Below the pieces are notes generated by a model that had not been told where the DNA came from, ran no database searches, and saw only the letters and a program-made list of their open reading frames with translations. The position numbers and the translations under genes are program-made. From a virus: a stretch of 37,699 nucleotides of DNA. The stretch lies in IMG/VR virus record IMGVR_UViG_3300031963_000415, positions 1-37,699 of that record. The stretch is one strand, 5' to 3'. Shown here in pieces: positions 2-36,111 of this stretch. How positions within the stretch are numbered: position 1 is the first letter of the stretch; each line of letters starts with the position of its first letter.

Positions 2-679
2 TCCATTGGCCTGAAGAAGTGGAATGCCCAGTGGCAGCAGCAACCCACGAACGACGAGGGGGCCATCTTGAAACGCCACTGGTGGCGCAAGTGGACCTAC
101 GACGAGCCCCCGTCCTGCGAGTACATCCTGCAGTGCCTGGACACGGCGTACTCCAAAAAGGAGACGGCCGACTTCTCCGTCATCAGCACCTGGGGCGTGT
201 TCTACCCTGACGCTGACTCTGGGGCAAACCTAATCCTGCTCAACGTGCGCAAGGGCCGGTGGGACTTCCCCGAACTCAAGCGCGTGGCCAAGGACGAGTA
301 CCAGTACTGGAAGCCAGACAACGTCCTGATCGAGGCCAAGGCAACGGGAACCCCGCTGCAGCAGGAACTGCGGCGTCTGAACATCCCTGTCACCATGTAC
401 TCCCCTGGGGGCAGGAAGACCGGGCAGGATAAGCTCAGCCGTGCCAACGCCGTGGCCCCGATCCTTGAGTCTGGAATGGTGTGGTATCCAGAAGGAAAAG
501 AGTGGGCTGAAGAGCTAGTCGAGGAGTGTGCTGCTTTCCCCAACGGGGCCAATGACGACCAAGTCGACACCGCTGTCATGGCTTGGCACCGGTTCCGTCA
601 GGGCAACTTCATCAGCCTGAATACGGACGAGGAGGATGAGAGGGAGATTGACAACGGCCCCGTTGAGTATTATGGCTAG
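2..679 (+). CDS. Terminase large subunit, C-terminal nuclease part (partial at 5' end)
   Basis: The reading frame is open from base 2, so the gene starts upstream of the window and the ATPase half is missing. What remains is the RNase H-like nuclease that cuts concatemeric DNA during packaging. The acidic active-site pattern is visible: Asp at 140-142 in a CLDTAYSKKETADFS context, Glu at 332-334 in VLIEAKATGTPL, and Asp residues at 554-568 in NDDQVDTAVMAWHRF. The start of the fragment (KKWNAQWQQQP, ILKRHWW) matches the linker seen in many phage terminases. A TTG at 68 could be mistaken for a start, but the conserved linker upstream argues against it. The tail after residue ~205 is acidic and probably variable. 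Confidence 0.93.
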   Translation, partial: SIGLKKWNAQWQQQPTNDEGAILKRHWWRKWTYDEPPSCEYILQCLDTAYSKKETADFSVISTWGVFYPDADSGANLILLNVRKGRWDFPELKRVAKDEYQYWKPDNVLIEAKATGTPLQQELRRLNIPVTMYSPGGRKTGQDKLSRANAVAPILESGMVWYPEGKEWAEELVEECAAFPNGANDDQVDTAVMAWHRFRQGNFISLNTDEEDEREIDNGPVEYYG

Positions 680-724: not shown

Positions 725-3700
725 ATGGCCCAAGACCTGATCGACAAAATCCGCGAACAAGCGCAGGCCCGAGGCCTGGACCCTGAGATTGCTGTGCGCA
801 TTGCTCAGGTTGAGAGTTCGATGGACCCGTCGGCCAAGGCAAAGACGTCTTCAGCCCAGGGCCTGTTCCAGGTGGTCGACAGTACTTGGAAGCAGTTCGG
901 GGGCAAGCCTGGGAAGAAGGCGGATGTGGATGAGAATATTCGGGTGGGCCTGAATATTTTGGAGTCCAACACAAAAAGTTTAAAAAATGCCTTGGGCCGT
1001 GAGCCAAGCGCCACGGAACTTTATGCGGCTCACTTCCTGGGTGCGCAGGGTGCGAAGACCTTGCTGACTGCCGCCCCGGACACCCCTGTTTCGCAGCTCC
1101 TGTCGCAGCGGGCGATCAAGGCCAATCCTTCGATGCTCAAGGACAAGAATGTTGAGCAGTTGTTGGGGATTTTGAATACGAAGATGGGGGCTCCTGCGGC
1201 TGCTGTTGCAGCGGCGCCGCCCACCCCTGCCGCGCCTATGCCCGCTGCTGCGGCGGGGGCCCCCAAGCGGGCTGCGCCTGCAGCTCCCGCAGCGCCTGTC
1301 ATCTCCAAGGGGATGAATTTGGGCACGGGGTATCAGGCTGCGTTGGCCCTGTCGTTTTTGGGCGATGAGGATGAGGACAGCACTCCGCTCACGCGCGAGC
1401 AGTGGCAAGAGCGCCAGGAGCAGACGTCGGCTGCGCAGATGCTGGCGGACTACAAGCCTAAGAATGCGTTGCAGGATATTAATTGGGATGAGTCGTCTTT
1501 ATTGGCTCCGCGCAAGATGGCTGATGGCGGGGAGGTAGCGAAACTGGCGGCGGGGGGTCTTCCGTATGTGCCTACGGCGCTGGTGCGGCCTTCGCTGCGC
1601 AATCAGTTGACGCAGGCGGATGCGAGCAACACGGCGTATTCCAAGGCGGTGGATGATTACAACGCGGCAGTGGATGCGTACAACGCCAACCCGCAGGGCG
1701 AGTTTACGATGAAGGAGCCAACGGCTCCTATAACTCAGGCCCAGTACGATGCGCTGGTGGCTAAGACGCGCAGTGATGTGCGCGGGCGCAATATGGCACT
1801 GCAAGTGGCGGCCAATCCTGAGCAGTATGGCTTGTCGCTGCCGAAGTTTTTCGCCGATGGCGGCGATGTGGACCTGCAGGGTCTACAGGATCAGGCGCGC
1901 AAGGGCGAGGCGTATCGCTTGATGGAGCAGTACCTCACCACCCGTGATGCGATGCCGGACATCAAGGCGAAGGTACTGCCGGAGCCCACCAATGCCGTGT
2001 TCACCGCTATGCGCATGCCAGCGGGAAGCGGGACGATCACGGTCCACAAGGACCCAGAGGTTATGCGAGTGATTGGCCCCTCGCTGATGGCGCATGAGCT
2101 GGCGCACGCCGCTGATCGCCAGATGGGGCAGCAGGCCAGTGAAGAGTCCAGTGTTATTGATGGCAAGAGCCAGTTTGCCGAGGCCTACGACAAGATGGTG
2201 GGGCGTGGCCCCTTCGTTTCTGGCAAAAAACGCACTGAGTTGGCACGCAAAGTCAACCCGGATTGGGCATCGTTTAACAAAGGGTATCGCGCCTCCCCTG
2301 ACGAGATCAGCGCGCACGGGGTGGGGGCGTTTGCCCCGAGCAAAAACATGCAGGATTCGGCCCCGTTGCACGTGGATGCGACCGCAGCGACCGAATTTCA
2401 AATCCTTTTGGAGCTTGCACAACGCAGTGCGAAGAACAAAGCAACGGGTGCGGTCAAAATCCCGAACTTTTTGAAGCAAATGATGGGTTTTGCAGAGGGC
2501 GGGGAGGTCGAACCGACGCCCGAGGAGCTTGCAGCGGCCTCCCGCCCTGCTTTTGTGACTTCAAAGTCCGGAATCGGGCGGAAAATCAGCACAAAACCGG
2601 GCGAAATCGACTCCGCCATCGTCCAAGGCATCTCCGAGATGCCCTACAACCTCGTTGGCAGCGTAGCGGACGTTGGTGCGCTGGCGCTACGACCGTTTGG
2701 CTACACAAATCCGACCCCGTTTCTTGGTTCTGAGCAACTGAAACAGCTTGCAACCCGTTTGGGCGTGCGTCAGGCGCCCCCGGAGCAGCCCACTGCCCGT
2801 GCTTTCTACGAATTGGGCCAGCTTGGCAGCTCTTTGATCAACCCGGTAGCCCCGGTGCGTGGTGCGGTAGCCGCTGGGCAGGCTGCGGGGCGCACGGCCC
2901 AACAAGCGCTGCAGGATTTCCAGGGCTACAACCGCCAACTGACGGTTCCTAGCGCGTCCTACGCTGTCAAACCTAAGGGCGGGGTGTCTGCCGTGACCAC
3001 TGAGCCCGGCATGGGGACTCCCATGTCTGACCTGGACAACCTACTTAAAGATTATGTTGTTGAGGCCAGAGCCACTGTTCCTGAAAGCTCGCGGGAAACG
3101 GTTATGGAGTTCTTGCGCACCAAGGCTCCCAAGTACTTCACCAACACTTACGGCACGGCCTCGGACCCGTTGCGGGAAGCTATCCGTTCTTCGCGGATTG
3201 CGCCCATGAGCAAAGAAGCGAAGGCTATGCCTTTTTCCCTGATTGAGACGGCCCGCAACCCTCAAGCTCGCGACCATGCGCAGGCAGCGATTGAGTTGGA
3301 AAAAGCCTACGATGACCTGACCGGTATTTATGGTCTTGCCTACCGTGCTCCGGATTCGACAAAGCCGCCGTCTTCCTTCTTTTCAAGCCAGCGTGAAAAA
3401 CAGATTTCTGCGGCCATGGGCCGCGAAGGGGTGCCCGTAGAGGCCCGCAACCCGCCCTTGGTTGATGCATATGCAAGGGAAGAGTTTGCAGAGTACCCAT
3501 ATTCATCCCGGGCCTTGCGCGCAATGGTAGAGAGCCCCACGCTGCCCCCGCACCTGCAGCGAGCGCTTAAAGAAGGCGAGACGATCTACGACGCCCAACC
3601 AAGCTTTGAGATGCTCAAGCCGGGTAATGTTGTGGATGCCCTAAGCGCGATTCCTGCCAACAAACTCAAGAACATGAGCTTCCCCGAGGCGCTGATTCAA

Positions 3701-4285
3701 GGCATGCAGGCCACGGCGCCGCTCCGGGACTACAAAGCGGCAATTGAAATTGCTGATCGCGGAGGCGCGGTGCCCCAGGCAGCCCTGATGAAGTTTACGC
3801 AACCAGTCGTCACTACTGACAAGGGCACATGGGTGCGCCTGACCGACCCGCTGGCTACTAAAATGGAAGGCCGACTTATGAACCACTCTGTGGACGGCTA
3901 CGCGCAAGGCGAGAGTTACGGCACGGCGTACACTGGTCTGCCGTATGGTGGCAAGAAGGCGTTCGAGGAGGGCCTTGCCCAGGTCTACTCGCTGCGCGAT
4001 AAGAACGGCAAGCCGATGGTCACGGTGGAGGTTGCCAACAAGGGCACAAAGGAAGAGCCTAAGCTGCTCGTGACCCAAGTTCGCGGCCGGTTTAATTCGG
4101 AACCCACTGCTGGTACGCAAAAAGCAGTTTTTGATTTGTTCGACAAGCTCGACGAAGGCGGCAAGCTCAAAGAGATCAGGCCGAACAGCTACAGTGTCAG
4201 CCCAACCGGAGAACGCCTGGACCAGGGCTCTCAAGTAGACTGGGGCCGTTTGTATGACGAGTGGAAATTAGATTTCGCGGAATAA
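725..4285 (+). CDS. Giant multidomain protein: lytic transglycosylase + HELAH zincin-like domain + PcfJ-like C-terminus
   Basis: A protein of 1186 residues between terminase and portal. Residues ~5-150 form an SLT-type lytic transglycosylase domain: catalytic Glu30 in RIAQVESSMDPS, then SSAQGLFQV and YAAHFLGAQGA. It would cleave peptidoglycan. An Ala/Pro linker follows (~155-195). ADGGEV-like motifs lie at 265-271, 376-382 and 589-595. A zinc peptidase motif HELAH is at 457-461, with Glu527 in SPDEISAH as a possible third ligand. Near the C-terminus, MNHSVDGY (1052-1059) and YSLRD...PMVTVEV (1088-1103) resemble the core of PcfJ-type domains, with Ser1055 where I recall a conserved Cys. Such fusions match the 'polyvalent proteins' of phages and conjugative elements that are packaged and injected. 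Functions of the middle and C-terminal parts are inferred. Confidence 0.75.
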   Translation: MAQDLIDKIREQAQARGLDPEIAVRIAQVESSMDPSAKAKTSSAQGLFQVVDSTWKQFGGKPGKKADVDENIRVGLNILESNTKSLKNALGREPSATELYAAHFLGAQGAKTLLTAAPDTPVSQLLSQRAIKANPSMLKDKNVEQLLGILNTKMGAPAAAVAAAPPTPAAPMPAAAAGAPKRAAPAAPAAPVISKGMNLGTGYQAALALSFLGDEDEDSTPLTREQWQERQEQTSAAQMLADYKPKNALQDINWDESSLLAPRKMADGGEVAKLAAGGLPYVPTALVRPSLRNQLTQADASNTAYSKAVDDYNAAVDAYNANPQGEFTMKEPTAPITQAQYDALVAKTRSDVRGRNMALQVAANPEQYGLSLPKFFADGGDVDLQGLQDQARKGEAYRLMEQYLTTRDAMPDIKAKVLPEPTNAVFTAMRMPAGSGTITVHKDPEVMRVIGPSLMAHELAHAADRQMGQQASEESSVIDGKSQFAEAYDKMVGRGPFVSGKKRTELARKVNPDWASFNKGYRASPDEISAHGVGAFAPSKNMQDSAPLHVDATAATEFQILLELAQRSAKNKATGAVKIPNFLKQMMGFAEGGEVEPTPEELAAASRPAFVTSKSGIGRKISTKPGEIDSAIVQGISEMPYNLVGSVADVGALALRPFGYTNPTPFLGSEQLKQLATRLGVRQAPPEQPTARAFYELGQLGSSLINPVAPVRGAVAAGQAAGRTAQQALQDFQGYNRQLTVPSASYAVKPKGGVSAVTTEPGMGTPMSDLDNLLKDYVVEARATVPESSRETVMEFLRTKAPKYFTNTYGTASDPLREAIRSSRIAPMSKEAKAMPFSLIETARNPQARDHAQAAIELEKAYDDLTGIYGLAYRAPDSTKPPSSFFSSQREKQISAAMGREGVPVEARNPPLVDAYAREEFAEYPYSSRALRAMVESPTLPPHLQRALKEGETIYDAQPSFEMLKPGNVVDALSAIPANKLKNMSFPEALIQGMQATAPLRDYKAAIEIADRGGAVPQAALMKFTQPVVTTDKGTWVRLTDPLATKMEGRLMNHSVDGYAQGESYGTAYTGLPYGGKKAFEEGLAQVYSLRDKNGKPMVTVEVANKGTKEEPKLLVTQVRGRFNSEPTAGTQKAVFDLFDKLDEGGKLKEIRPNSYSVSPTGERLDQGSQVDWGRLYDEWKLDFAE

Positions 4286-4294
4286 GGAACAGAC

Positions 4295-6727
4295 ATGCCC
4301 ATCGAAAAAAACAACGATCTCCCGTCTGGCAATCTTGATGTTCAGGTAGAAGACATCGCTGTTGAGGACCTGCCCGACATTGAGATTGAGTTTGACCCGG
4401 AGACGGGCAGCGTTGATGTGACGCTGGGCGAGGACGACAAGGAGGTGCCTTTTGACACCAACCTTGCAGAGGTGATGGACCCCTCAGTGCTGCAGACGCT
4501 GTCGTCTGAGCTGATGGTCATGTACGAGGCGGACAAGTCCTCGCGCAAGGAGTGGGAAGAGCAGTACGGCAAGGGCCTGAAGATGCTGGGCTTCTCGTTC
4601 GAGGAGCGCACCAAGCCGTTTAAGGGCGCCGCTGGCGTGCAGCACCCGCTGCTGACTGAATCGATTGTGCAGTTCCAGTCGCAGGCGCTCAAGGAGCTGC
4701 TGCCCTCGGAAGGCCCCGTGCGCACGCAGGTGCTGGGCAAGGAGACGCGCGAGAAGTTGATGCAGGCAGATCGCGTGCGCGACTTCATGAACTACCAGAT
4801 CACCACGGTGATGGAGGAGTACACGCCCGACTTCGACCAGCTCCTGTTCTACGTGGGCTACGGCGGCTCGGCGTTCAAGAAGGTCTACTTCGACGAGGAC
4901 AAGCAGCGCATGGTCAGCAAGCTGATCACGCCGGATGACCTGTACATCCCCTACAAGGGCTCGTCGGTGATGTGCGAGTGTGATCGCATCATCCACCGCG
5001 TGTACATGTCCACCAACGCCTACAACAAGGCCTGCCTGCGTGGCCAGTACTTGGACACGGCGCAGGCTTCCACCCCTGCTGAGACGCCCCAGAGCACCAT
5101 CCAGAAGGAGTTGGACCGCACGACCGGTGTTCAGGCGACGACGGAGCCCGAAGAGATCACGCTGCTGGAGTTCAGCATCGAGCTAGACCTCGTGGGCTTT
5201 GAGCACAAGGACGAAGACGGCGAGCTGACGGGCATCAAGCTGCCCTACATCGTCACTGTGGACGAAGTCACCAACCAAGTGGTTGGTGTGCGGCGCAACT
5301 GGAAGGAAGGCGACGATCTGTATCGCGCCTGCCAGTACTACGTCCACTACCTGCTCGTGCAGGGCCCGGGGTCCTATGGCCTTGGCTTCTTGCACTTGGT
5401 CGGTGGCCTGACCAAGACCGCCACCGGTGCGCTGCAGCAGCTCCTGGACGCTGGCACGCTGGTCAACCTGCCTGCTGGCTTCAAAGCCAAGGGCGCGCGC
5501 ATCATGAACGACGATGTGCCGCTGCAGCCCGGTGAGTTCCGCGACATCGACGCGGGCGGCGCTGATTTGCAATCGACGCTGATGCCTCTGCCTTACAAGG
5601 AGCCGAGCCAGACGCTGCTGCAACTGCTGGGTATCTGCGTAGAAGCCGGGCAGCGCATGGCTTCGATCACCGACATGCAGGTGGGCGACAGCAACCAAAA
5701 CGCTGCCGTGGGAACCACGATTGCGCTGCTGGAAAAGGGCAGCGCGGTCATGTCCAGCATCCACAAGCGCCTGCACTACAGCCAGAAGATTGAGTTCCAA
5801 CTGTTGGCCAAGGGTTTTAGCGAGTACCTGCCCGACGAGTACCCGTACGATGTGCCCGGCGAGAGCCGCACGATCAAACGCCGCGACTTCGATGACCGCA
5901 TCGATGTGCTGCCTGTGTCGGACCCCAACATCTTCTCGGTGGCCCAGCGCATCACCATGGCGCAGACCCAGCTCCAACTGGCTCAGAGCGCCCCGCAGAT
6001 GCACAACATGTACGAGGCCTACCGCCGCATGTATGAGGCCATTGGCGTGCGCGACATCGACCAGATTCTGAACACGCAGAACGTCGACCGCCCCAAGGAC
6101 CCGGCCAGCGAGAACGCCCAGGCGCTGGATGGCTCGCCGCTGAAGGCTTTTGCTGGCCAGCAACACGATGCGCACATCATGGCGCACCTGATGTTCGGTA
6201 TGTCCCCGATTGTTGGCTCGCTCCCCAACGTGGCCATCATCTTGCAAAAGCACTGCTTTGAGCACATTCGCCTCAAGGCCGAAGAGGATGTGGAAGTCGA
6301 GCTGTTCAAGCTGTATGGCACCGACCCGGATCGCGTGGTTTCCGCCCTGCAGCGCGAGGCCATGATTGCCATGAAGGTGGCTGAGAACTTCCAGGCCATG
6401 AAGGCGCTGCAAGAGCAGATGTCCGGCAATCAGGAAGACCCGCTGGTGGCCCTGAAGAAACAGGAGCTGGAGCAAAACGCCAAGCGCGATCAGCAGCGTG
6501 GCGCCCTGGATCAGGCCCGCCTGTCCCTGGATGGCCAGAAAGCGGCTGCGGATGTCGCCGACGATCAGGCCAACCTGCGCCTGAAGGAAGCCGCCTTGGA
6601 AGCCAAGACCGGCGTGGATTACGCAAACATCGACCTACAAGGAGCGCAGCATGTCGCGAACGTCAGCCAACAAGCCTTCCAAAATGCCCAAAGCGCCAGC
6701 GCGGCCCCGACGGGAAGGCCCCAATAA
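4295..6727 (+). CDS. Portal protein, P22-like
   Basis: An 810-residue protein that would form the dodecameric ring through which DNA enters and leaves the head. AAGGAA precedes the ATG by six bases. The first ~65 residues are acidic. The conserved core follows: SSRKEWEEQYGKGLKMLG, GAAGVQHPLLTESIVQFQSQ, LPSEGPVRT, FDQLLFYVGYGGSAFKKVYF and ITPDDLYIPY, a series typical of P22-type podovirus portals. It is somewhat longer than P22 gp1 (about 725 residues). The last ~130 residues are Gln/Ala-rich and probably helical, like the barrel or crown extension of that family. Position downstream of terminase and upstream of scaffold and capsid supports the call. Confidence 0.92.
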   Translation: MPIEKNNDLPSGNLDVQVEDIAVEDLPDIEIEFDPETGSVDVTLGEDDKEVPFDTNLAEVMDPSVLQTLSSELMVMYEADKSSRKEWEEQYGKGLKMLGFSFEERTKPFKGAAGVQHPLLTESIVQFQSQALKELLPSEGPVRTQVLGKETREKLMQADRVRDFMNYQITTVMEEYTPDFDQLLFYVGYGGSAFKKVYFDEDKQRMVSKLITPDDLYIPYKGSSVMCECDRIIHRVYMSTNAYNKACLRGQYLDTAQASTPAETPQSTIQKELDRTTGVQATTEPEEITLLEFSIELDLVGFEHKDEDGELTGIKLPYIVTVDEVTNQVVGVRRNWKEGDDLYRACQYYVHYLLVQGPGSYGLGFLHLVGGLTKTATGALQQLLDAGTLVNLPAGFKAKGARIMNDDVPLQPGEFRDIDAGGADLQSTLMPLPYKEPSQTLLQLLGICVEAGQRMASITDMQVGDSNQNAAVGTTIALLEKGSAVMSSIHKRLHYSQKIEFQLLAKGFSEYLPDEYPYDVPGESRTIKRRDFDDRIDVLPVSDPNIFSVAQRITMAQTQLQLAQSAPQMHNMYEAYRRMYEAIGVRDIDQILNTQNVDRPKDPASENAQALDGSPLKAFAGQQHDAHIMAHLMFGMSPIVGSLPNVAIILQKHCFEHIRLKAEEDVEVELFKLYGTDPDRVVSALQREAMIAMKVAENFQAMKALQEQMSGNQEDPLVALKKQELEQNAKRDQQRGALDQARLSLDGQKAAADVADDQANLRLKEAALEAKTGVDYANIDLQGAQHVANVSQQAFQNAQSASAAPTGRPQ

Positions 6728-7070: not shown

Positions 7071-7529
7071 ATGGAAGCAACTGCACTGGAGAAGAAGTGG
7101 GCAGAGGAGTCAGCGGCAGCCGCTGCTGCTGAAGCTGCCCAAAAAGTCGCGGATGAAGCTGCAAAGGCCGCCCACATGGAGCAGGCCGAGAGCATGCGAG
7201 AGCGCCTACCCCGTCCGACGGGCTGGCGGATCATCGTACTGCCGTATGCAGGCGCGCGCCGCACTAAAGGCGGCATCGAGCTGGCCAACGAGACGATTGA
7301 GCGCCAGCAGCTCACTACCACTTGTGCATACGTCCTGTCTGTTGGCGAATTGGCCTACAAGGACGAAGCAAAATTCCCCGGCGGCCCTTGGTGCAAAGAG
7401 GGGGATTGGATTATTTTTGGTCGGTACGCGGGAGCCCGCATGGCTATTGATGGCGGAGAAATCCGCATCCTCAATGACGATGAAATCCTGGCGACGATCA
7501 AAAACCCAGAAGACATCCTGCACATGTGA
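7071..7529 (+). CDS. GroES-like co-chaperonin
   Basis: A 152-residue protein. Residues ~48-142 match the GroES fold: RPTGWRIIVLPYAG at the first strand, a mobile-loop segment RRTKGGIELANETIE (63-77), AYVLSVGE, then CKEGDWIIFGRYAGARMAIDG and IRILNDDEILATI, which parallels the conserved GroES C-terminal half. GroES caps the GroEL chamber; T4 gp31 is the classic phage example, needed to fold the major capsid protein. In place of the GroEL-binding Ile-Val-Leu triplet the loop has Ile-Glu-Leu. Unusually, an Ala/Glu-rich helical extension of ~45 residues precedes the fold. AAGGA lies before the ATG. Location between portal and scaffold supports a role in capsid folding. Confidence 0.82.
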   Translation: MEATALEKKWAEESAAAAAAEAAQKVADEAAKAAHMEQAESMRERLPRPTGWRIIVLPYAGARRTKGGIELANETIERQQLTTTCAYVLSVGELAYKDEAKFPGGPWCKEGDWIIFGRYAGARMAIDGGEIRILNDDEILATIKNPEDILHM

Positions 7530-11922: not shown

Positions 11923-12132
11923 ATGGGCCAACATCAAGAAACAGTGAAAAACACGCTGGACATTGTCTCGGTGTTTGCAGCAATAGGTTCTTTTCTTGAA
12001 CTGCTGACCCCGGTGTTCGGTTTGATTGGTGCTGTGTGGACGCTCATGCGTATCGCAGAGATGGTCACCGGCAAGCCGTTCTCTGAAATTGTTCGCCGCA
12101 AGAAGGTGGCTGACGATGCCAGCAGCGAGTAA
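11923..12132 (+). CDS. Holin-like small membrane protein (69 aa)
   Basis: The ATG at 11923 begins two bases after the preceding stop. Residues ~11-28 and ~31-46 are hydrophobic (TLDIVSVFAAIGSFLELL, PVFGLIGAVWTLMRIAEM) with a Pro between them, followed by a basic C-terminal tail (IVRRKKVADD). Two close spans with a positive tail are typical of small class II holins. Similar short proteins occur in T7-like and pelagic phages. It lies among head and connector genes rather than beside an endolysin. Holin is the best guess; a virion membrane protein is possible. Confidence 0.58.
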   Translation: MGQHQETVKNTLDIVSVFAAIGSFLELLTPVFGLIGAVWTLMRIAEMVTGKPFSEIVRRKKVADDASSE

Positions 12133-12481
12133 GAAGCAAAAGCGCTTGATGGATGCGGCGGCGCACAGCCCCGCATTCGCCAAGAAGGTAGGCATCCCTA
12201 TGTCCGTCGCTAAGGACTTCAGTGAGTCCAGCAAGGGCTTGAAATTTAGGAAAGGTGGTGGTGAAATGATGGGTTACAAAAAAGGCGGCCTTGCTATGCG
12301 TGGTGAGGGCATCGCCAAAAAAGGTTTTGCCAAGGGTGGTGCGGTGACGGCCAAAGGTGCTGACACTGCTGGTCCGCAAGGCGGTCCGACCCACCAGCCG
12401 GTCAAAAAGAGCGTCCAAGGCGACACCGTGCAGGTTCGCGGCGTGGGCGCTGCTCGTGCTCGTAAGGCCACGATCTACTGA
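12116..12481 (+). CDS. Basic Gly/Lys-rich protein with PAxSKKQ N-terminus (121 aa)
   Basis: The ATG at 12116 overlaps the end of the holin-like gene by 17 bases, with AAGGTGG at 12103-12109. The N-terminus MPAASKKQKRLMDAAAHSP followed by VGIPMSVAKDFSESSKG matches a small-protein pattern (PAxSKxQxxLM...DF) that recurs in tailed phages of many types. The rest is Gly/Lys-rich and includes YKKGGLAM and GFAKGGAVTAKG (residues 70-81), a copy of the F-A-x-G-G motif also seen in the giant protein and in an ejection protein. There are no Cys residues. It is probably a virion or nucleic-acid-associated protein. Confidence 0.65.
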   Translation: MPAASKKQKRLMDAAAHSPAFAKKVGIPMSVAKDFSESSKGLKFRKGGGEMMGYKKGGLAMRGEGIAKKGFAKGGAVTAKGADTAGPQGGPTHQPVKKSVQGDTVQVRGVGAARARKATIY

Positions 12482-12486
12482 GCATC

Positions 12487-13164
12487 ATGGCCACTTCAGG
12501 CGTTGCCACCTTCAACCTGGAGTTCGATGACATCATCGTCGAGGCGTATGAACGCTGCGGCCTTGATGTCAGGGACGGCTACGACATGAAGACGGCACTG
12601 CGCTCGATCAACCTGATGTTCGCCGAGTGGGCGAACCGTGGCTTGAACCTGTGGACCATCGAGCAGCGCCAAGTTGCTCTGGTGGCCGGGCAGTATGAGT
12701 ACACGCTGCCGGATGACACTGTCGATGCTTTGTCGGCGGTCATTCGCACGAACGCAGGTTTGTCCACGCAGCAGGACATCACGATTGATCGCATCGGCTA
12801 TGCCGAGTATCTGCATGTGCCCAACAAGAGCACGCAGTCTCGTCCGGCGCAGTATTTTGTTCAGCGCACGGCCCCGGCCAAGCTATTCTTGTATCCGGCT
12901 CCTGATGCCACGCAGTCCTACATCTTCCGCTACTACGCCATCCGGCGCATCCAGGATGCGGGCACGTTCTCAAATACGGCGGACATTTCGTTCCGATTCC
13001 TGCCCTGTTTGATTGCGGGAACCGCGTACTACCTGTCTGTGAAGAAGGCGCCTGAGCGCATCCAGTTGCTCAAGACCATGTACGAAGAGGAGTTCGCCCG
13101 CGCGGCTGCAGAAGACCGCGAAAGGTCGAGCTATTTTGCGGTTCCTAAGACCTGGGGGTACTAG
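12487..13164 (+). CDS. Head-tail adaptor, P22 gp4-like
   Basis: A 225-residue protein opening with FNLEFDDIIVEAYERCGLD, MKTALRSINLMFAEWANRG and LNLWTIEQRQVALVAGQYEY, a pattern characteristic of the podovirus adaptor that binds under the portal (P22 gp4, T7 gp11 role). Further on are FFVQRT-type strands (PAQYFVQRTAPAKLFLYPAP), TAYYLSVKKAPERIQLLK and a C-terminal helix ending in SSYFAVPKTWGY. The order capsid, adaptor, tail is conserved in this group. Its start is close behind the previous stop and has only a weak ribosome site, so coupling is likely. Confidence 0.8.
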   Translation: MATSGVATFNLEFDDIIVEAYERCGLDVRDGYDMKTALRSINLMFAEWANRGLNLWTIEQRQVALVAGQYEYTLPDDTVDALSAVIRTNAGLSTQQDITIDRIGYAEYLHVPNKSTQSRPAQYFVQRTAPAKLFLYPAPDATQSYIFRYYAIRRIQDAGTFSNTADISFRFLPCLIAGTAYYLSVKKAPERIQLLKTMYEEEFARAAAEDRERSSYFAVPKTWGY

Positions 13165-13166
13165 GA

Positions 13167-13502
13167 ATGAGCGGTGGGTGGGCCTCCGGCAAATTTGCAA
13201 TTGCTCTGTGCGATCAGTGCGGGCAGCGCTTTAAGCTCAACGCCCTCATCAAGGACTGGAAGGGCTTCAAGGTTTGTCGTGAGTGCTATGAGCCCAAGCA
13301 TCCTCAGTTGGAGCCTAAGCGGACGATCACGGAGCCCCAGGCGTTGTACCAGCCGCGCCCTGAGGCGCGCATGGCTGTGACAGTTTTTGTGGGTAGCCCG
13401 GGTGATTCTTCAATTGGCAGTATCGGTATGATTCCGATGCCGTTGTCTCAGCAGTTGTGGGCCGCTGGGGTGCTTGCTCCTGTCACGGTGGAGATCACAT
13501 GA
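13167..13502 (+). CDS. Zinc-ribbon protein in the connector operon (111 aa)
   Basis: Two Cys pairs, CDQC (15-18) and CREC (37-40), are separated by a strand-like FKLNALIKDWKGFKV segment and followed by YEPKHPQLEPKR. This four-Cys zinc ribbon is a known, widespread phage small protein next to adaptor genes. The C-terminal half has little charge (VTVFVGSPGDSSIGSIGM). It starts two bases after the adaptor stop and overlaps the next gene through ATGA. The zinc ribbon could stabilise a connector component or bind nucleic acid; no experimental role is known to me. Confidence 0.72.
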   Translation: MSGGWASGKFAIALCDQCGQRFKLNALIKDWKGFKVCRECYEPKHPQLEPKRTITEPQALYQPRPEARMAVTVFVGSPGDSSIGSIGMIPMPLSQQLWAAGVLAPVTVEIT

Positions 13503-14164
13503 ATTACACAGAACTCAAAGCCACAATTGAGGACTACACTGAGAACACCTTCACGCAGGATGAGCTTGCAACCTTTGTGAAGCAGGCCGAGCAGCGTATT
13601 TACAATACGGTGCAGCTTGCCAACTTGCGCAGGAACGTGACGGGCACCTTCTCGGCGAACAACAAATACCTCTCGGCCCCGGGCGATTTTTTGTCGGTCT
13701 ATTCCATCGCCGTAATTGATCAGCTTGGCGACTACCACTATCTCAAAAACGTGGATGTCAACTACATTCGGCAGGTCTACCCATCGGCTTCGACCACCGC
13801 GCTGCCCAAGTACTACGCCATTTTTGGTCCCGTCACGAACTTGCAGACGGAGTTGTCTTTTATCGTGGGACCGACTCCCAATTCGTCATATGCAGTAGAG
13901 CTGCATTACTACTACTATCCGACCTCGATGGCTGATACGGTCAATAATCCGTCGGGCACCACGTGGTTGGGCGACAATTTTGACTCTGTCTTGCTGTACG
14001 GCTCTTTGGTGGAGGCCTACACCTTCATGAAGGGCGAGCAGGATATGATGGCTGTCTACGACACCAAGTACAAAGAGGCCTTGATGCTTCTTAAGAACCT
14101 GGGCGACGGCAAGCAGCGCGGTGACGCATACCTGGATGGTCAGGTCAAGCTCAAGGTGCAGTAA
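13499..14164 (+). CDS. Neck / phage adaptor-like structural protein
   Basis: The ATG at 13499 overlaps the preceding TGA, so this start is favoured over longer in-frame options. The product has 221 residues: MNYTELKATIEDYTENTF, DELATFVKQAEQRIYNTVQ, LANLRRNVTGTFSANNKYLS, then PGDFLSVYSIAVIDQLGDY and ELHYYYYPTSMAD, and a C-terminal helix KYKEALMLLKNLGDGKQRG. This is a frequent podovirus and siphovirus connector-region protein often labelled phage adaptor. It is probably the second ring between portal and tail. It has no enzymatic features. Confidence 0.72.
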   Translation: MNYTELKATIEDYTENTFTQDELATFVKQAEQRIYNTVQLANLRRNVTGTFSANNKYLSAPGDFLSVYSIAVIDQLGDYHYLKNVDVNYIRQVYPSASTTALPKYYAIFGPVTNLQTELSFIVGPTPNSSYAVELHYYYYPTSMADTVNNPSGTTWLGDNFDSVLLYGSLVEAYTFMKGEQDMMAVYDTKYKEALMLLKNLGDGKQRGDAYLDGQVKLKVQ

Positions 14165-26341: not shown

Positions 26342-28591
26342 ATGGCCGCTGAAGACCAAGGCATTATGTCCCTTCCGATGGAGGGCGAGGCCACTTCCCA
26401 AAACATGCCCCAAATGCCGCTGGAAGAGTCTTATGACGCGGTACAGCAGGGCCTGCAAAACGCCTCCCCACAGGCAGCAGCGGATGTTCAGCAACTCATG
26501 GCCAGCATCATGCCGCAACTGGACCAGTTGTCGGATGAGGAGCTAGACACGCTTTTGCAGATGGTGCAGTACCTCTACGAAGGCGGCGAAGAGCAATACG
26601 CCAAGCGACTGCAGGAAGCAATCTCGTCCGGGGCCATTGACGCAGGGGATTTGCCCGACGAGTACGACCCCGAGGTGCTGTCTTCCATCGGTACGGTGCT
26701 GCTGCAAGCCGTTCGCCAACGCCAGGGGGGCATGCAGGCGGAGCAAGGCCCGATGCCCCCGGCTCAGTTCGCCCGAGGCGGTATTGCCGAGGCGGCTCGG
26801 ATGGTGGCGTCCAAAGGGCGCTACGGCGACACCATGCTGGCGCATATCACCCCGGAAGAAGCAAGGTTGCTGAAAAAGCGCGGGGGCTCGGGCTCAATCA
26901 ACCCCGAGACCGGGTTGCCGGAATTCTTCCTCAAGAAGCTTTTCCAAGGGGTCAAACAGGTTTTTAAAAGCGTTGCCAAGGCCGTCAAGTCGATTGTCAA
27001 GTCCCCGATTGGCAAAATCTTGTCTACTGTGGCGTTGGCCACGTTCCTTGGCCCGCTGGGCGCCTTTGCACTCCCAGTTGCTTCTGGCACTGTCACTCTT
27101 GCTAGTGGCGGCAGCCTAAAGGATGCCCTGATTTCAGGCGCCACTGCCTACTTTGGCGCTCCTGGCGGCGCGGTCTCGCAGTATATTGGCGCAGCGGGCA
27201 TCACCAATGTGGCGGCTAACGCCGCTATTACTGCGGGCATTGTGGGCACCGGCGCGGGTCTGCTCACGGGCCAGAAGCTACAAGATGCGGTGAAAGCGGG
27301 TCTGACTGCGGGTGCAATTAGCGGAATCAGTACGGGCGTTCAACAGGGCTTTACCACGGGCAATGCACCGCGCACTGATCTGCCGTTGGTTGAGGATCGT
27401 GGTGACATGCTGCGCACCACGACAGGCGACCAGTTTGTTCCCGCATCGGCGGGGCAGGGAGCTCCTCTTACGCCCCGAGCCGTGGCAAGTGGGACCGCTG
27501 CTGCGGTCCCTGAATTCCGAAACGAATATGGTGATCTGTATACGCCCGATGCGACCATTCGGGCGCGCCTAGCAGGGGCAGCACAAGCGCCAACTTCTGC
27601 CGCTGCGCCGGGTGCCGCACCTGCCGCTGCGGCACCGCCTACAACCGGGCCGCTGCAAACGCCTCCGGGGGCGCCTATTGAGTCTTTTGGCCAAGCTCCC
27701 ACTGTTATGGAATCCCTGACCAAAACCGCTGGAGGTATTGGCGATCTGTTCCAAGGCAAACCGGGCGCGTTTGATACGATCAAGCAAGGGGCCTCCGACC
27801 TGTTCATGCCTAAGACCTACACGGCGGCAGAACTCCAAAACTCCGATGTGTTTACAACAGCCAGGGGGGCAGGGGCCACGTATGAACAGGCGTTGAAGCG
27901 GGCTCAAGAGGCGTACAACCCCGGCATCGTGCGCCAGTACGGCCCGATGGTGGGCGCAGGCCTTGGTGTAGCGGGTTTAATGGGTGGTTTTACGCCAAAA
28001 CAGCCCGCCCCTTCCGCGCTGGCTCAGCAGATGCGTGGCACTCCTGGCTTGGATTTGATAAACCGCTCGCCTAGAGATTACTTGGTGCAGGGCCTGCCCG
28101 GCCTGCAATACAGCCCCGAGGGCAACATCATAGGATCAACTCCATATCGTCCTTCGGCAACTATGGCGGATGTTAGGGTGGCCGCCTCTGATATGGGAGC
28201 TGCAATGACAGCCCCACCCATACCAAGGTATGTCCCTGATCCAAGGGCCATGGGCACTGCTCGTGACATCAGTCAGCCGGGCAACACTGCTGCCATGTAC
28301 AGCAACCTAATGCCCAACATGGGCTACAACCCATATGACCCCTACGGCTACTTTGCTGCAGCCGACGGTGGTCTTGCTTCTTTGGCCAGCGGCGGGTATC
28401 CTCGCAAAACTGGAGCAATCAGTGGCCCTGGGACCGAAAAATCGGATTCCATCCCTGCGATGCTCTCTGACGGGGAATTTGTCATGACAGCCAAAGCCGT
28501 TCGCGGCATTGGCGGTGGCAGCCGCAGAGCAGGAGCGAAGAAAATGTACGCTCTAATGCATCAGCTTGAGCGCAACGCCTCGCGGGGATAA
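26342..28591 (+). CDS. Large ejection-type protein with cationic membrane-active helix
   Basis: A 749-residue protein with AAAGGAGC before the ATG. An acidic Gln/Met-rich N-terminus is followed by QFARGGIAEAARMVASKG (142-159), GRYGDTMLAHITPEEA and SGSINPETGLPEFF, conserved in many environmental phages. Residues 195-228 form a Lys-periodic amphipathic helix, followed by a hydrophobic Gly/Ala segment (~226-290). Residues ~415-450 are Ala/Pro-rich. The C-terminus has ADGGLASLASGG, SDSIPAMLSDGEFVMTAKAV and a basic helix, a motif shared by many tape-measure or ejection proteins. It is probably an internal virion protein that enters the membrane. Function inferred. Confidence 0.7.
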   Translation: MAAEDQGIMSLPMEGEATSQNMPQMPLEESYDAVQQGLQNASPQAAADVQQLMASIMPQLDQLSDEELDTLLQMVQYLYEGGEEQYAKRLQEAISSGAIDAGDLPDEYDPEVLSSIGTVLLQAVRQRQGGMQAEQGPMPPAQFARGGIAEAARMVASKGRYGDTMLAHITPEEARLLKKRGGSGSINPETGLPEFFLKKLFQGVKQVFKSVAKAVKSIVKSPIGKILSTVALATFLGPLGAFALPVASGTVTLASGGSLKDALISGATAYFGAPGGAVSQYIGAAGITNVAANAAITAGIVGTGAGLLTGQKLQDAVKAGLTAGAISGISTGVQQGFTTGNAPRTDLPLVEDRGDMLRTTTGDQFVPASAGQGAPLTPRAVASGTAAAVPEFRNEYGDLYTPDATIRARLAGAAQAPTSAAAPGAAPAAAAPPTTGPLQTPPGAPIESFGQAPTVMESLTKTAGGIGDLFQGKPGAFDTIKQGASDLFMPKTYTAAELQNSDVFTTARGAGATYEQALKRAQEAYNPGIVRQYGPMVGAGLGVAGLMGGFTPKQPAPSALAQQMRGTPGLDLINRSPRDYLVQGLPGLQYSPEGNIIGSTPYRPSATMADVRVAASDMGAAMTAPPIPRYVPDPRAMGTARDISQPGNTAAMYSNLMPNMGYNPYDPYGYFAAADGGLASLASGGYPRKTGAISGPGTEKSDSIPAMLSDGEFVMTAKAVRGIGGGSRRAGAKKMYALMHQLERNASRG

Positions 28592-28594
28592 CAC

Positions 28595-30208
28595 ATGGCC
28601 GAAGTCACAGAACAGATAGTCCGGGAAGCGCCGGAAATTGAGGCCTATAAACTAGGCTTACTCAAATCCGCGCAGGCGCTACAGCCCCCGGTCTTACCAA
28701 GCTATCAAGTAGCGGGGCTGTCGGCGCCCCAGCTCGCGGCCTTGCAGGCTGGACAAGCGGGTATTGGCGCTTATTTGCCGTATCTGCAAAGTGGCCAGGG
28801 CTCATTAACGGCTGGCACGGGCGCTTTGGACGAAGCGGCTGACATTTTGCGAGGAGCGGACACACGTGGCCAGTTTGCCGCAGCGCAACAGGCCTACAAC
28901 CTTGCCGCCCAGCCTGCAGCTCAAATTGGCGCTTTATCAAACGTGGCAGGCTCAGGGATGGGCTATCTTGGCGCCGCTGGGCAAGATTTTGATTTTGCCC
29001 AGCAAATGGCCCAGCAGGCGAGGCAGGCGGATCTTGCTCCTTCTCAAGCACTCATGCGGGCTTCGGCAGAGCGCGCCCAGCAAGCCGGACCCGATTTTGG
29101 TCAGGCTCAAAGCCAGTTGAGAACCGGGGCAAAGCGGGCACAAGCGGCATCCGAACAGGGGATTGAGGGTCTATTGAGCGCTACGGAGGCGTTTAATCCT
29201 CGCTCGGCACGGGCCTTCATGAACCCATATCAGCAGCAAGTGATTGATGAGGCGACGCGCCAAATCAATCGCCAAGGCGATATTGCGAGGCAAAACCTGC
29301 AAGCACAGGCTGTTCGTGCCGGGGCATTTGGTGGTTCGCGTGAAGGCGTACAGCGAGCGGAGCTTGAACGCAATCTGGCTGAGACGCGCAATGCAGCCAT
29401 CATTAATGCGCTGCAGCAGGGGTATGGAACCTCGCAGCAGCAGGCACAACAGGCGTTTGAGCAGCAACAGCAGCGCCAATTGTCCGCTTCTGGTCAAGGG
29501 GGTCAACTTGGGTTGGCCGCTGCAGGGCAAACTGCTCAGGTGGGCGCTCAATTGGGCTCTCTTGAAGCACAGCGCGCAGCACAGGCTTTGCAAGCTGCTC
29601 AATATGGTGGCACTGTTGGCCAACAGTTGGCTGCACAGGAGCTACAGCAAGCAGGCCTTGGTCAGGGCGCTGCGGGCCTGTATGGACAACTTGCAGGACA
29701 GCAAGCAGGGCTGGCAGGGCAGTATGCGGGGATCGCGGGTCAACAAGCCAGCATTCTGGGCCAGCAGTCGCAACTGCAACAAGCGCTGGGCCAAAACATT
29801 GGCAATCTTGCTACCCAACAGTTTGGCGTGGGGCAAAACATGGCTCAAGGCCTGGGTGCGCTGGGTTCGCAACTGGGTAATCTAGGCGTGCAGCAGGCCG
29901 CGTTGGGTCAAAGCGCTCAGCAACTGAGCCAGAACGATATCAACTTCCTGTACAACCTGGGCTCTGTCCAGCAGAAGCAGCAGCAGGCTGAACTTGATGC
30001 ACTGCGGGCAACCCAGATGCAACAGGCTATGCAGCCTTACCAGCAAATAGCGTTCCAATCGGACATCTACAAGGGGGCGCCATCGACCCAGATGGCAGTG
30101 ACCCAGCAACAGCAAGCCACGCCCAGCGCGTTTCAACAGGTCGCGGGCCTGGGCACGGGTATCTTGAGCACCGCCGCTGCCGCCAACGCGGCCAGCAAGC
30201 TCTTCTAA
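28595..30208 (+). CDS. Gln/Ala-rich ejection-type protein with heptad repeats
   Basis: A 537-residue protein starting three bases after the previous stop. It has a conserved-looking central block (FMNPYQQQVIDEATRQINRQ, DIARQNLQAQAVRAGAFGGS) and a long Gln, Ala, Gly and Leu-rich C-terminal half where Leu/Ile recurs every seven residues (LAGQQAG, LAGQYAG, IAGQQAS, ILGQQSQ). That is an amphipathic helix or coiled-coil pattern. Gln/Ala-rich heptads are typical of P22 gp7/gp16/gp20-type ejection proteins, which build a channel through the cell envelope. It has no enzymatic motif. Confidence 0.7.
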   Translation: MAEVTEQIVREAPEIEAYKLGLLKSAQALQPPVLPSYQVAGLSAPQLAALQAGQAGIGAYLPYLQSGQGSLTAGTGALDEAADILRGADTRGQFAAAQQAYNLAAQPAAQIGALSNVAGSGMGYLGAAGQDFDFAQQMAQQARQADLAPSQALMRASAERAQQAGPDFGQAQSQLRTGAKRAQAASEQGIEGLLSATEAFNPRSARAFMNPYQQQVIDEATRQINRQGDIARQNLQAQAVRAGAFGGSREGVQRAELERNLAETRNAAIINALQQGYGTSQQQAQQAFEQQQQRQLSASGQGGQLGLAAAGQTAQVGAQLGSLEAQRAAQALQAAQYGGTVGQQLAAQELQQAGLGQGAAGLYGQLAGQQAGLAGQYAGIAGQQASILGQQSQLQQALGQNIGNLATQQFGVGQNMAQGLGALGSQLGNLGVQQAALGQSAQQLSQNDINFLYNLGSVQQKQQQAELDALRATQMQQAMQPYQQIAFQSDIYKGAPSTQMAVTQQQQATPSAFQQVAGLGTGILSTAAAANAASKLF

Positions 30209-30217
30209 GGACGCACG

Positions 30218-32686
30218 ATGAAAGAAGAAATCCTCAAGCGTGCCATGTTCGCCATGCCGCTGTCCAAGGAGGCCAAGAACTCCGGCATCATGGCTGGGTT
30301 CGATCTGGACGAGATGGAAGACATGCCAGAGCCTGAAGAGGCCACCGAAGAGATGCCGCAGATGGCGCGCACGCCTCAGAATCCTGAAATTCTGATGAAC
30401 AACCTGCGCGGCGACTACCGCTCGGTGGATGCACGCTACATGGAGTTGGCGCAGATGGTGGGCGAAGAAGCCGCCATGGAGACGCCCCCGGAAGTGCTGG
30501 CCATGCTGCAGATGCAGCTTGGCGCCCAGCCGCCCGCACAGGGCATTGGTGCGTTGCCCCAGGCCCAGGGGATGATGCCTCCTGGCGCTATGCCCCCGGG
30601 GATGATGCCCCCAGGCATGGAGGGCGGCATGCCCCCTTTTCCGGCGGGCGGGGCTGAGCAGGCTCCGCCTACCCCGGACGGCCTCCCCCCGCTCAAGGCC
30701 GCCGCTGGCGCCTTTGTCAATCCCCTGACTCGGTTTGCCCAATTTAGCGCGGACAAGCTGGGCACGTTGGCCAGCGGAGCCAACGCCCTGGGCGGCCAGC
30801 TCATGACTCGGGGCGCACCTAATGTGTTCCCGCCGGTGTTTGAGAACCTGCGCGGCCCGGGTGGCCGTTTCATCGCCGAACAGACGATGCGGTACCCGAC
30901 GCTCACGCAGCACTTGTCGACCATGATGGGCCCCACGGCAACCCGCATGATGGAGCGGGCTGGGACGATGGTTCCGCCTGCTGCAACTACTGCCGCCGGT
31001 TATGTCGGCGCATCGGGCCTGTATAAGTCGATGTTTGGCGACAAGGTCGATCCCGAGCGAGCTGCCCTTTTGAAGGCCTATGAGGATGCGTACTACCAGC
31101 GCATGGACAAGTCCATCCCGATGCCTTCTGTGGACAGGCTGACCAACGAACAGATTCAAGCTGAGATTCTGAAGATCGTTGGGCAACAAGGAACCTATGC
31201 GCCGACGCAGGATGCAAATCGTGAAGCTCAGTTAGAGCTGCAAAGAGAGGCTCGTCGGCGTGGCCCGATAACCGTGGACGTTGCCGGGCGCCCGTTGTTG
31301 GAGATGGAAAAACCGGACGCCGCTCCCGCTGTTCCGCCCCCTGCTGCCGCTACCGAAGGAGAAGCCGCTCCTGCTGCTGCCGCTGCGCCTGCTTCGGCTA
31401 CCGACTTTATCCGGGCGCAGCTTGCCTCTGGCAGAACCGAGACTCCGACGGGACGGATGGAACGTATCAAGGCTGCCCGGGAGGAGTACGCGCCGCTGTA
31501 TCGCGAACTGCTGGGCGACACGAAGGAAGACATGTACCGCAACGCCATGCTGATGCTGGCCGATGCGGGCTTCAAGTACGCTTCGCTCCCTGCCAAGTCC
31601 GGCACCACGCCCATTTCGCTTTTGGCCACCGCCGCACAAGGCCTGCCCCAGGGCTTCATGGCCCTGCTGGCTCAGGCCAAGGATCGCCAGCTCAAGGTCG
31701 ACACTGCTGCCCTGTCGCAAGCTGTCAGCGATGTGCAGGAGCAAGACAAGTTTGCTCAGCAACTTAAGCTCAAGCTTATCGATGGCGACTACCGCCTGTT
31801 GATGGAGCGGATCAAAAACCTTGGGAAAAACGCCCCTAAGGCGGAATATCTTGGGGCGGGAATTGCAAATTATGTCGATCCCAACGGCGGGTACCTTGGC
31901 ACTTCAATCATGATGGTTCCCGATGGCAAGGGCGGCCAGAAGCTGCACCCCGCAGCCGAGACCATCCTTGGTAGCCGGTACACACTGCGTCAGACCGACA
32001 ACCCGTTTGTGGAGAATCGGGGCCCCGCCGCCGTGCGCGTGGCCACCACAAAAGACGAGGTCACCGCTGCTACAAAACGCCTGGATGAGGTAACAAATGG
32101 TTTGCGCATCCTTGACAACCTCGAAGGGGTCTATACACGGGCGTACGGCCCCGGCGCATGGTTTGTGGACAAAGTCAACAAACTGGTGGTGCCTGTGATT
32201 GAAAGCGCCGCCCCTAAATCAAGCACTGAGCTTGCTGCGGCAGGCACTGAAATCAGAGCGGCAGTCAACTCCCTCTCTAAAGCGTTTGCCGGGGAAGGCA
32301 GCGATGGGCGCTTGTCTAATCAGACACAGGAATGGGGACGGCAGATTCTGGGGGACTTGGACAACCCCGAAAAATTCTGGGCCTCGAAGGACCTGATGGC
32401 AAAGCGTTTGGCTACTCTTCGCACTCTCTTCTCTAACGACAGGCAGAGCCAGATTGCCACCCTTGGATTGGAATCTAATGATCTAGTCATGAAAGTTCCA
32501 AATACGGGAACGAAGATTGACCCGTTCTTGATTCCTTCTGATGTCGAGCAGCAACAGCGCCTATTTAACTTCCTGGGCAGCACGGTGGGCAAGCTACAAG
32601 ACCCCCGGGCCCAGGTCTACCTGCGCCTACCTAATGGCTCGGTCCAAAGCTTTAACCCGACTCAACTGCAAGGGTTGATCAAGTAA
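30218..32686 (+). CDS. Large internal virion-type protein (822 aa)
   Basis: AAGGA precedes the ATG. The N-terminus MKEEILKRAMFAMPLSKEAK is followed by an acidic helix and a Met/Pro/Gly-rich stretch at ~117-140 (MPPGAMPPGMMPPGM). The middle has a Gly-rich helical zone (MMGPTATRMMERAGTMV) and a Pro/Ala linker (~360-395). The C-terminal ~430 residues are charged and helical (GRMERIKAAREEYAPLYREL, VQEQDKFAQQLKLKLIDGDY) with a globular end (LPNGSVQSFNPTQLQGLIK). I do not recognise a family. Its size, its neighbours and the TAATG overlap with the next gene favour an ejected or internal virion protein. Confidence 0.65.
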   Translation: MKEEILKRAMFAMPLSKEAKNSGIMAGFDLDEMEDMPEPEEATEEMPQMARTPQNPEILMNNLRGDYRSVDARYMELAQMVGEEAAMETPPEVLAMLQMQLGAQPPAQGIGALPQAQGMMPPGAMPPGMMPPGMEGGMPPFPAGGAEQAPPTPDGLPPLKAAAGAFVNPLTRFAQFSADKLGTLASGANALGGQLMTRGAPNVFPPVFENLRGPGGRFIAEQTMRYPTLTQHLSTMMGPTATRMMERAGTMVPPAATTAAGYVGASGLYKSMFGDKVDPERAALLKAYEDAYYQRMDKSIPMPSVDRLTNEQIQAEILKIVGQQGTYAPTQDANREAQLELQREARRRGPITVDVAGRPLLEMEKPDAAPAVPPPAAATEGEAAPAAAAAPASATDFIRAQLASGRTETPTGRMERIKAAREEYAPLYRELLGDTKEDMYRNAMLMLADAGFKYASLPAKSGTTPISLLATAAQGLPQGFMALLAQAKDRQLKVDTAALSQAVSDVQEQDKFAQQLKLKLIDGDYRLLMERIKNLGKNAPKAEYLGAGIANYVDPNGGYLGTSIMMVPDGKGGQKLHPAAETILGSRYTLRQTDNPFVENRGPAAVRVATTKDEVTAATKRLDEVTNGLRILDNLEGVYTRAYGPGAWFVDKVNKLVVPVIESAAPKSSTELAAAGTEIRAAVNSLSKAFAGEGSDGRLSNQTQEWGRQILGDLDNPEKFWASKDLMAKRLATLRTLFSNDRQSQIATLGLESNDLVMKVPNTGTKIDPFLIPSDVEQQQRLFNFLGSTVGKLQDPRAQVYLRLPNGSVQSFNPTQLQGLIK

Positions 32687-35600: not shown

Positions 35601-36111
35601 CGGGGCCCTGGCCCTGCTGGTGCGCCTGACCTCCTCGCTTGAGAACCAACTGTACAAGCGCATCTTCACCCGTGCGCTGGAGAGCGAAGAGTTCGCCAAG
35701 CAGATCACCCATGTCGGCACCCCCGCCGAAGGGGCGAAGGTTGTCAAGAGCTTGCAAGAGATCGGCATCGAAAAGGCCCGCATCGCCAACCCCGTGCGCC
35801 GTGCCATCCAGCAAGAGGTCAGCAGCGGCGCGCAGAGCGACCAGCCTGAGAAGATTGCCGGGATGGAAGGCCTGCCGGTTGTGACTCCCGCACCACGGAC
35901 CACGGCCCGGGAGATGCTCAACCGCGTGCAGCCTCCTGCTCCGCCTACCCGTGGCACGAACTTCCGCCTGCCGACGACGCCTCAGGCCCCGCAAGGTGGT
36001 GGCATGGGCCAGATACCTCTGATGTATCCGGCGATGTTCCCCAACGACCCGATCAGTGCCCTGCTCCAACAGCGCGCAGCGGCAGTCGGCGGCCAGCCGC
36101 CCCAGCAATAA
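32686..36111 (+). CDS. Giant helical internal virion-type protein (1141 aa)
   Basis: The ATG shares a base with the preceding TAA. Residues ~50-230 contain several hydrophobic helices (VGNTLPFTGILAYTAATR, AAAPATSLFKGIADDTIR, LLPSAAFIGLPLALSGALKI) and AIDMAFGAGWETLRQAVEEN, which could insert in membranes. Residues ~230-1060 are a long charged helical body (FNLLEQLGPKELEGIKLRIN, RQRQDMTDAEILAVSERLGP). The C-terminus is Pro-rich and disordered. No catalytic motif was found by eye. T7 gp16 and P22 ejection proteins are analogues by size and position only. It is the largest of four ejection-type genes in a row. Confidence 0.65.
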   Translation: MATITNTQGQLVDLTTGQIVGRAEGAPVTTTDPRKGGEGAPEQVTQGDDKVLGLVNNLSWGFNAGLFSLPDAAQRVIGKGLGLDENQVFQFTRFFNRGQVAPRNVEERYARAIGEGVGNTLPFTGILAYTAATRPLVSAAAPATSLFKGIADDTIRMVQKSPRSAAAIDMAFGAGWETLRQAVEENVAEDNPNKALYKELLPSAAFIGLPLALSGALKISPTARAANWAREKATGPGVAMGDVEREAMAGVPGPFKLPLVNIIPKTLIKNAERKLSQVFGPIAESREAQDALKALETAMADPRFASAGFVFDAAEKTMYAPLVREKFNLLEQLGPKELEGIKLRINQNQEALDQLFGNLAPAARKPVLEAFQAAQKDRQTFFEGLLRQRQDMTDAEILAVSERLGPQNIDMLNNELRGVLMSRMELDNKMRQNVLSRMGLKQATAPDGTPLPTREDGRSLFQAQDMEAAVMDLLKKYRPERPSMRVSMPEPVRLLDNFVQAQLLQRARMERDATRQLADDVVDSQLAEMGRAGIDPELIKVAKNSVRQLVGAATEKTAKGKSGKGRLGLADLVQASGAKISPDGTVSVSVTPNTVVRFKPEQLKQDAARIAADSTKIDLNLPEALDYLTAAQRFRNDSVSSYNAAMTRGRTRQTDAQRIMDTGDAVFRDIEGLVLNHSPRLKGEYDAMKVMLDDYKSVFDKTVPLLLTQTKKGGTEYLLPNEDLLRNAFRSADGIRDVSAILGNDAQSQSLMMRGTIDWLRSKGVVNKDGLVDPKMIRSVLNKNKNIVDALPEQVRTKLADEVRLADDYVARVGELDQRAVLAKDNELDRILTKAVRPGSDPRTVLTDALRDPAVMTKLVGVVSGDSEMLAALRRSVYDIATEGAQGGGALKTFLDSNEKSLKVLFGGTNHLNDLKTLADLQRRVNAFANVTGQIPAFESLDEGLKRVFGSGVQYLTTTMREAAVGRIAPETGALALLVRLTSSLENQLYKRIFTRALESEEFAKQITHVGTPAEGAKVVKSLQEIGIEKARIANPVRRAIQQEVSSGAQSDQPEKIAGMEGLPVVTPAPRTTAREMLNRVQPPAPPTRGTNFRLPTTPQAPQGGGMGQIPLMYPAMFPNDPISALLQQRAAAVGGQPPQQ

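Follow-up and report, generated by a model that had tools for sequence, protein, structure and literature searches.

Virion transglycosylases of the T7 gp16 and phiKZ gp144 type carry an SLT domain, which in T7 gp16 stands at the N-terminus of a protein of more than 1000 residues; to our knowledge none of them has a zincin or a PcfJ module. PcfJ is itself a widespread domain without known function, found in phages and conjugative plasmids. The lake phage DSL-LC04 encodes a PcfJ-like protein (WJZ48068.1) between its TerL and portal genes, and uncultured Caudovirales in BFVD also encode a ‘PcfJ-like protein’. A further comparison is with the polyvalent proteins, which occur in phages and conjugative elements and combine several enzyme domains in one chain (Iyer et al. 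2017, PMC5512222). In that paper these proteins include zincin-like metallopeptidases and lysozyme-type domains and occur in portal-terminase phages, all of which they have in common with the protein described here; the term PcfJ is absent from it. Both the polyvalent class and the PcfJ-like label are thus already known.

The window analysed is a 37.7 kb fragment (37,699 nucleotides) of an uncultivated virus record and starts inside the terminase gene. The 1186-residue protein P0001 lies between terminase and portal, where an earlier sequence-only reading had placed it, with the C-terminal part of TerL before it and the portal after it (Table 1). It has the SLT domain in common with the gp16 and gp144 type of transglycosylase but, unlike them, adjoins the portal gene. 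That reading also proposed that transglycosylase, zincin and PcfJ-like modules are fused in the one chain, and each is borne out by its own evidence: the SLT domain by profile, the zincin by conservation and fold, and the PcfJ-like domain by homology and fold. P0001 therefore has at least two distinct enzyme domains in one polypeptide. The SLT match scores 44.6 bits against a Pfam cut-off of 21.3, and the Glu30 singled out beforehand is present, corresponding to the glutamate in the ‘ES’ signature of SLT domains.

Table 1. Features of P0001 and related features of the window (position 1 is the first nucleotide of the window)
Feature	Position	Strand	Basis
TerL, C-terminal part	68..679	+	PHROG 38, E=8e-33
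P0001, whole modular protein, 1186 aa	725..4285	+	ATG start, uninterrupted reading frame
SLT transglycosylase domain, residues 9-88	749..988	+	PF01464 E=1.2e-11; phiKZ gp144 in PDB
Predicted catalytic Glu30	812-814	+	SLT domain residue
Junction motif 1, MADGGEV, residues 265-271	1517..1537	+	motif search
Junction motif 2, FADGGDV, residues 376-382	1850..1870	+	motif search
Zincin-like metallopeptidase module (predicted), residues 380-589	1862..2491	+	HEXXH and Glu the same in all 9 homologues; predicted fold
HELAH, residues 457-461	2093..2107	+	conserved in homologues
Glu527, predicted third zinc ligand	2303..2305	+	invariant; own helix after HEXXH helix in model
Junction motif 3, FAEGGEV, residues 589-595	2489..2509	+	motif search
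Conserved module, function unassigned, residues about 603-742	2531..2950	+	33 homologues, alignment
PcfJ-like region, helical N-terminal part, residues about 767-979	3023..3661	+	homologues, alignment, model
PcfJ-like domain with putative GNAT-like fold, residues about 1006-1186	3740..4282	+	alignment, profile, model, structure matches
QVRGRFN, residues 1118-1124, GNAT motif A place (beta4 / next main helix)	4076..4096	+	conservation, secondary structure
Portal protein	4295..6727	+	PHROG 1216, E=1.4e-39; 80 relatives
FARGGIAE in tape-measure-like ORF 26342-28591	26768..26791	+	invariant motif position

The zincin module had been proposed from HELAH and Glu527. Both are present, the latter in YRASPDEISAHG, and H457, E458, H461, D464 and E527 are invariant in nine homologous modules (45-48% identity, the closest one excepted); shuffling P0001 yields 0.0025 HEXXH motifs by chance. 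BLAST of the zincin module against 50,697 phage records gave no relative, and two viral scans with it gave near-identical or 85% identical copies only; further homologues were reached through the neighbouring module. The profile search proposed for this module gave no Pfam match in P0001, and relatives match weakly (SprT-like 0.0082, M91 0.011). The predicted model has a helix at its N-terminus and three strands, then the helix that bears HEXXH and, further on, one that carries the Glu, although its confidence is low (mean pLDDT 59.5, falling to 33-49 around Glu527). Its best structural matches are zincins, led by the lethal-factor catalytic domain with a Z of 6.5 over 133 residues, a value too low to trust alone, followed by 3e11 (Z 4.7), SPRTN (3.9) and IrrE (3.7); with Foldseek alone, neither this model nor that of the PcfJ-like domain had a PDB match below 1e-3. 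The elements of the zincin model and their order are those of the core that PMC5512222 gives for polyvalent metallopeptidases; an Asp three residues past HEXXH is there a feature of one phage-type group. The assignment of a zincin-like metallopeptidase module holds up as a prediction from conservation and fold together.

At the C-terminal end, region 746-1186 can be aligned with 19 relatives, and the HSV..Y / YSLRD / VTVE block is as first described and lies within a domain conserved across 20 sequences. What did not follow was a direct profile match to PcfJ, since the P0001 module reaches only 13.4 bits against PF14284 (E=0.07; cut-off 25). The syntenic DSL-LC04 protein passes that cut-off with 35.7 bits, the module HMM matches it at 1.7e-14 and 1.5e-7, and hhalign gives PcfJ homology a 94% probability. 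P0001 has the H(S/C)V..Y, SLRD, VT(I/V)E and QxxG..N blocks of this homologue, which has AxGG motifs near its N-terminus in common with P0001, but matches neither the SLT nor the zincin module and shares only the middle and PcfJ modules with P0001. The model is of good quality (pLDDT 89.7) and matches PcfJ-like phage proteins in BFVD down to 4e-11; among its top viral structure matches, most of those that bear a name are PcfJ-like. Membership of PcfJ, predicted through the DSL-LC04 homologue and the model, therefore holds up.

The fold of this domain appears to resemble that of the GNAT acetyltransferases, a likeness for which we found no earlier report in the papers searched. Nearly all of the 50 PDB matches listed for the model are GNATs, the best with a Z of 8.2 over 145 residues. 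In GNATs, motif A has the form [QR]xxGx[GA] and lies at the end of a strand before the main helix. In the PcfJ-like domain QxxGx[FG]N ends the strand before the main helix, as QIKGKGN in DSL-LC04 and as QVRGRFN in P0001, where the N is invariant and the Q and G are near-invariant in the alignment. Residues 1006-1186 appear to have in common with GNATs the predicted fold and a QxxGx[GF]N after beta4; no sequence similarity was found between them. We offer the GNAT-like reading, with QxxGx[GF]N in the position of motif A, as a new hypothesis from the model, since a Z near 8 can reflect a common arrangement. If true, it would be the first biochemical hypothesis for the orphan PcfJ family.

The place of P0001 beside the portal had been called unusual for a tail-tip lysin, and this did not stand. 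When 80 related loci were taken with the portal as anchor and the ORF directly upstream was read, that ORF proved to belong to a modular family in which some segments are common and others replaced. In this phage group the portal is as a rule preceded, at a distance of about 10 bp, by the end of a modular ORF that often bears SLT. The conserved 603-742 module (pattern PYNLVG..D..MRPFGY..GSE.LK), which the sequence-only reading had lacked along with the three junction motifs described below, brought in a second set of 80 loci; a transmembrane role for this module was rejected, its maximum 19-residue hydropathy being 0.98. The zincin and C-terminal modules used alone found no match in annotated phages, and in a search with the whole of P0001 it was the SLT end that matched, among the matches listed. 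The non-redundant relatives number about 100.

Among the 57 complete, non-redundant slot ORFs, 35 have SLT, 20 have HEXXH and 25 have the PcfJ-like domain. Weak matches to PcfJ itself are also seen in relatives. HEXXH occurs 32 times in 99 non-redundant relatives against 0.55 expected. The HEXXH types belong to at least three zincin families not united by profiles: profile comparison joined HELEH and HETEH only, and did not join the HELAH zincins to the HELEH, HEGQH, HEAYH or HELVH types. Domains named for the polyvalent class, LPD23 (E=1.4e-10) and ART-PolyVal (E=1.1e-17), are found in the slot protein of relatives and not in P0001 itself, and it is their presence in the same slot that supports the polyvalent reading of the P0001 family. 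Caulobacter phage RW and Roseobacter phage CRP-901, which are related, lack a gene of this kind between terminase and portal, so a protein of this type is not essential to the design. The swapping of modules in this slot, often at a short peptide, suggests an exchangeable payload packed with the DNA. The exchange slot is new here; at this fixed place aquatic phages exchange wall hydrolases, several unrelated zinc peptidases, ADP-ribosyltransferases and PcfJ-like domains. DUF6973 (E=1.5e-7; residues 655-757 of L036:5564-9988) adds another module to those exchanged in the slot. Some relatives have two ORFs where others have a single slot ORF (L031:3265-4053, L089:2203-3024), and the second then carries an AxGG-VER-RxYL tail at its end, beside the portal. 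In Pelagibacter phage HTVC027P, a cultured member of this group, gp41 and gp42 occupy the slot and have AxGG-type motifs.

The short peptide has the form [FMY]-A-x-G-G-x-V and recurs at module junctions. It is a new motif, conserved as protein. P0001 has three copies of [MF]A[DE]GG[DE]V against 0 expected by shuffling, and [FMY]AxGG occurs 119 times in 99 family ORFs against 7.6 when shuffled, with a slight excess only in control ORFs (10 against 3.9). Two further peptides recur: RA[DEN]GSP, 51 times in the same 99 ORFs against 0 expected, and AxGG[MS][VI]ER...RxYL, which forms the C-terminal end of many relatives, adjoining the portal. Homology breakpoints fall within five residues of the motif in 9.1% of cases against 2.6%, a 3.5-fold enrichment. 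Within 15 residues a breakpoint is found for 73% of internal motifs, compared with 31% of other GG pairs. The codons at the A, G, G and V are near background use, which argues that selection is on the peptide and not on the DNA. Such punctuation of modules is not described for polyvalent proteins in the passages of PMC5512222 consulted.

The motif might be no more than a flexible linker, favoured where folded modules meet, and carry no signal. Modular proteins often have glycine-rich junctions and the motifs do sit at module ends, so this is a possibility to be taken seriously, if not one we favour. However, an Ala two before the GG, a Phe or Met before the Ala and a Val after it make a specificity that goes beyond glycine. 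Moreover, [FML]AxGGIA is fixed at one place in another protein, that of ORF 26342-28591, where 43 sequences of median 40% identity to that of the window all keep the A, G, G, I and A. The product of this ORF, which is presumably a virion protein, has 749 residues with the invariant FAxGGIA near residue 145 and, despite the SU10-like adaptors of the phage, a tape-measure-type C-terminus (GYPRKTGAISGPGTEKSDSIPAMLSDGEFVMTAKAV).

A somewhat more doubtful possibility is that the zincin works as an autoprotease, maturing its own chain either ahead of packaging or afterwards, with AxGG as its sites. The motifs bracket the zincin module in P0001 and several relatives, and the phage P1 protein DdrB, which has a zincin, is processed before packaging according to PMC5512222. 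However, motif density is independent of HEXXH (2.8 per 1000 aa without it and 2.6 with it), so an in-chain zincin need not cut the motif, and the motif is fixed in ORF 26342-28591, which has no recognised zincin and would need a protease acting in trans. Among those ORFs of the window that were scanned, the zincin is the sole protease recognised, the contig being incomplete. The tail protein gpH of lambda, which is known to be cleaved, has FATGG and YATGG near its C-terminus; a general rule of cleavage at AxGG was not drawn, as the T5 tape-measure site lies after Arg (PMC10038345).

On its conservation the AxGG motif may instead be a signal read by protein, for packaging or for cleavage, and it offers a way to test how chains of this kind are packaged or cut. 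A wider version of this idea, which we regard as speculative and would not expect to hold in full, is that AxGGxV is a packaging or cleavage signal shared by several virion-delivered proteins in a large aquatic podovirus-like group, enabling effectors to be swapped beside the portal, PcfJ being one such effector and a GNAT-like transferase.

We consider it probable that P0001 is a polyvalent protein whose enzyme modules travel in the virion and leave it along with the DNA; the packaging is inferred from the gene position and the SLT domain. P0001 would be made late, as a chain of separate enzyme modules, and be packaged into the head close to the portal. On ejection with the DNA, the N-terminal SLT domain would open the peptidoglycan at entry, the zincin might cut its own chain, freeing modules, or host proteins, and the PcfJ-like domain, with its GNAT-like fold, could modify a host target in the cytoplasm. 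The AxGG motifs would mark the module ends and probably act as a protein signal for processing or packaging, allowing modules to be exchanged without loss of delivery. Our search found no proteomics for such proteins in virions and no paper on PcfJ-like proteins in virions.

P0001 could also be mainly an ejection protein that works like T7 gp16 through a murein hydrolase: the SLT domain would be what counts, the zincin and PcfJ modules would be degenerate passengers and the rest would scaffold the ejection channel. Like gp16 it has an N-terminal SLT domain and more than 1000 residues, and four relatives match PHROG 342, an internal virion protein with an endolysin domain. We think this unlikely: relatives at 45-48% identity keep the zincin active-site residues unchanged, the C-terminal modules are swapped for other enzymes, and 28595-36111 of the window holds further candidates for ejection proteins. 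Of these, ORF 28595 has a weak match to PHROG 4287 (DNA ejection protein), and the two very large candidate ORFs at 30218-36111 (822 and 1141 aa) have no PHROG or confident Pfam match. That the DNA coding for AxGG is a recombination site for module shuffling, as the clustering of breakpoints there might indicate, is highly improbable and was rejected, since the codon use is near background and the DNA is not conserved.

Two neighbouring ORFs of the window match the SU10 adaptor family (12487-13164, E=7.6e-14; 13457-14164, E=2.6e-24), which suggests an SU10-like podovirus tail. Downstream of the portal, 7071-7529 encodes a phage GroES co-chaperonin (Cpn10 E=5e-9), as is also found in DSL-LC04, HTVC027P and Caulobacter phage RW. 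A small ORF after the capsid genes (12026-12481) has KKGG/FAKGG repeats, and short AKGG-bearing proteins resembling it are found in relatives.
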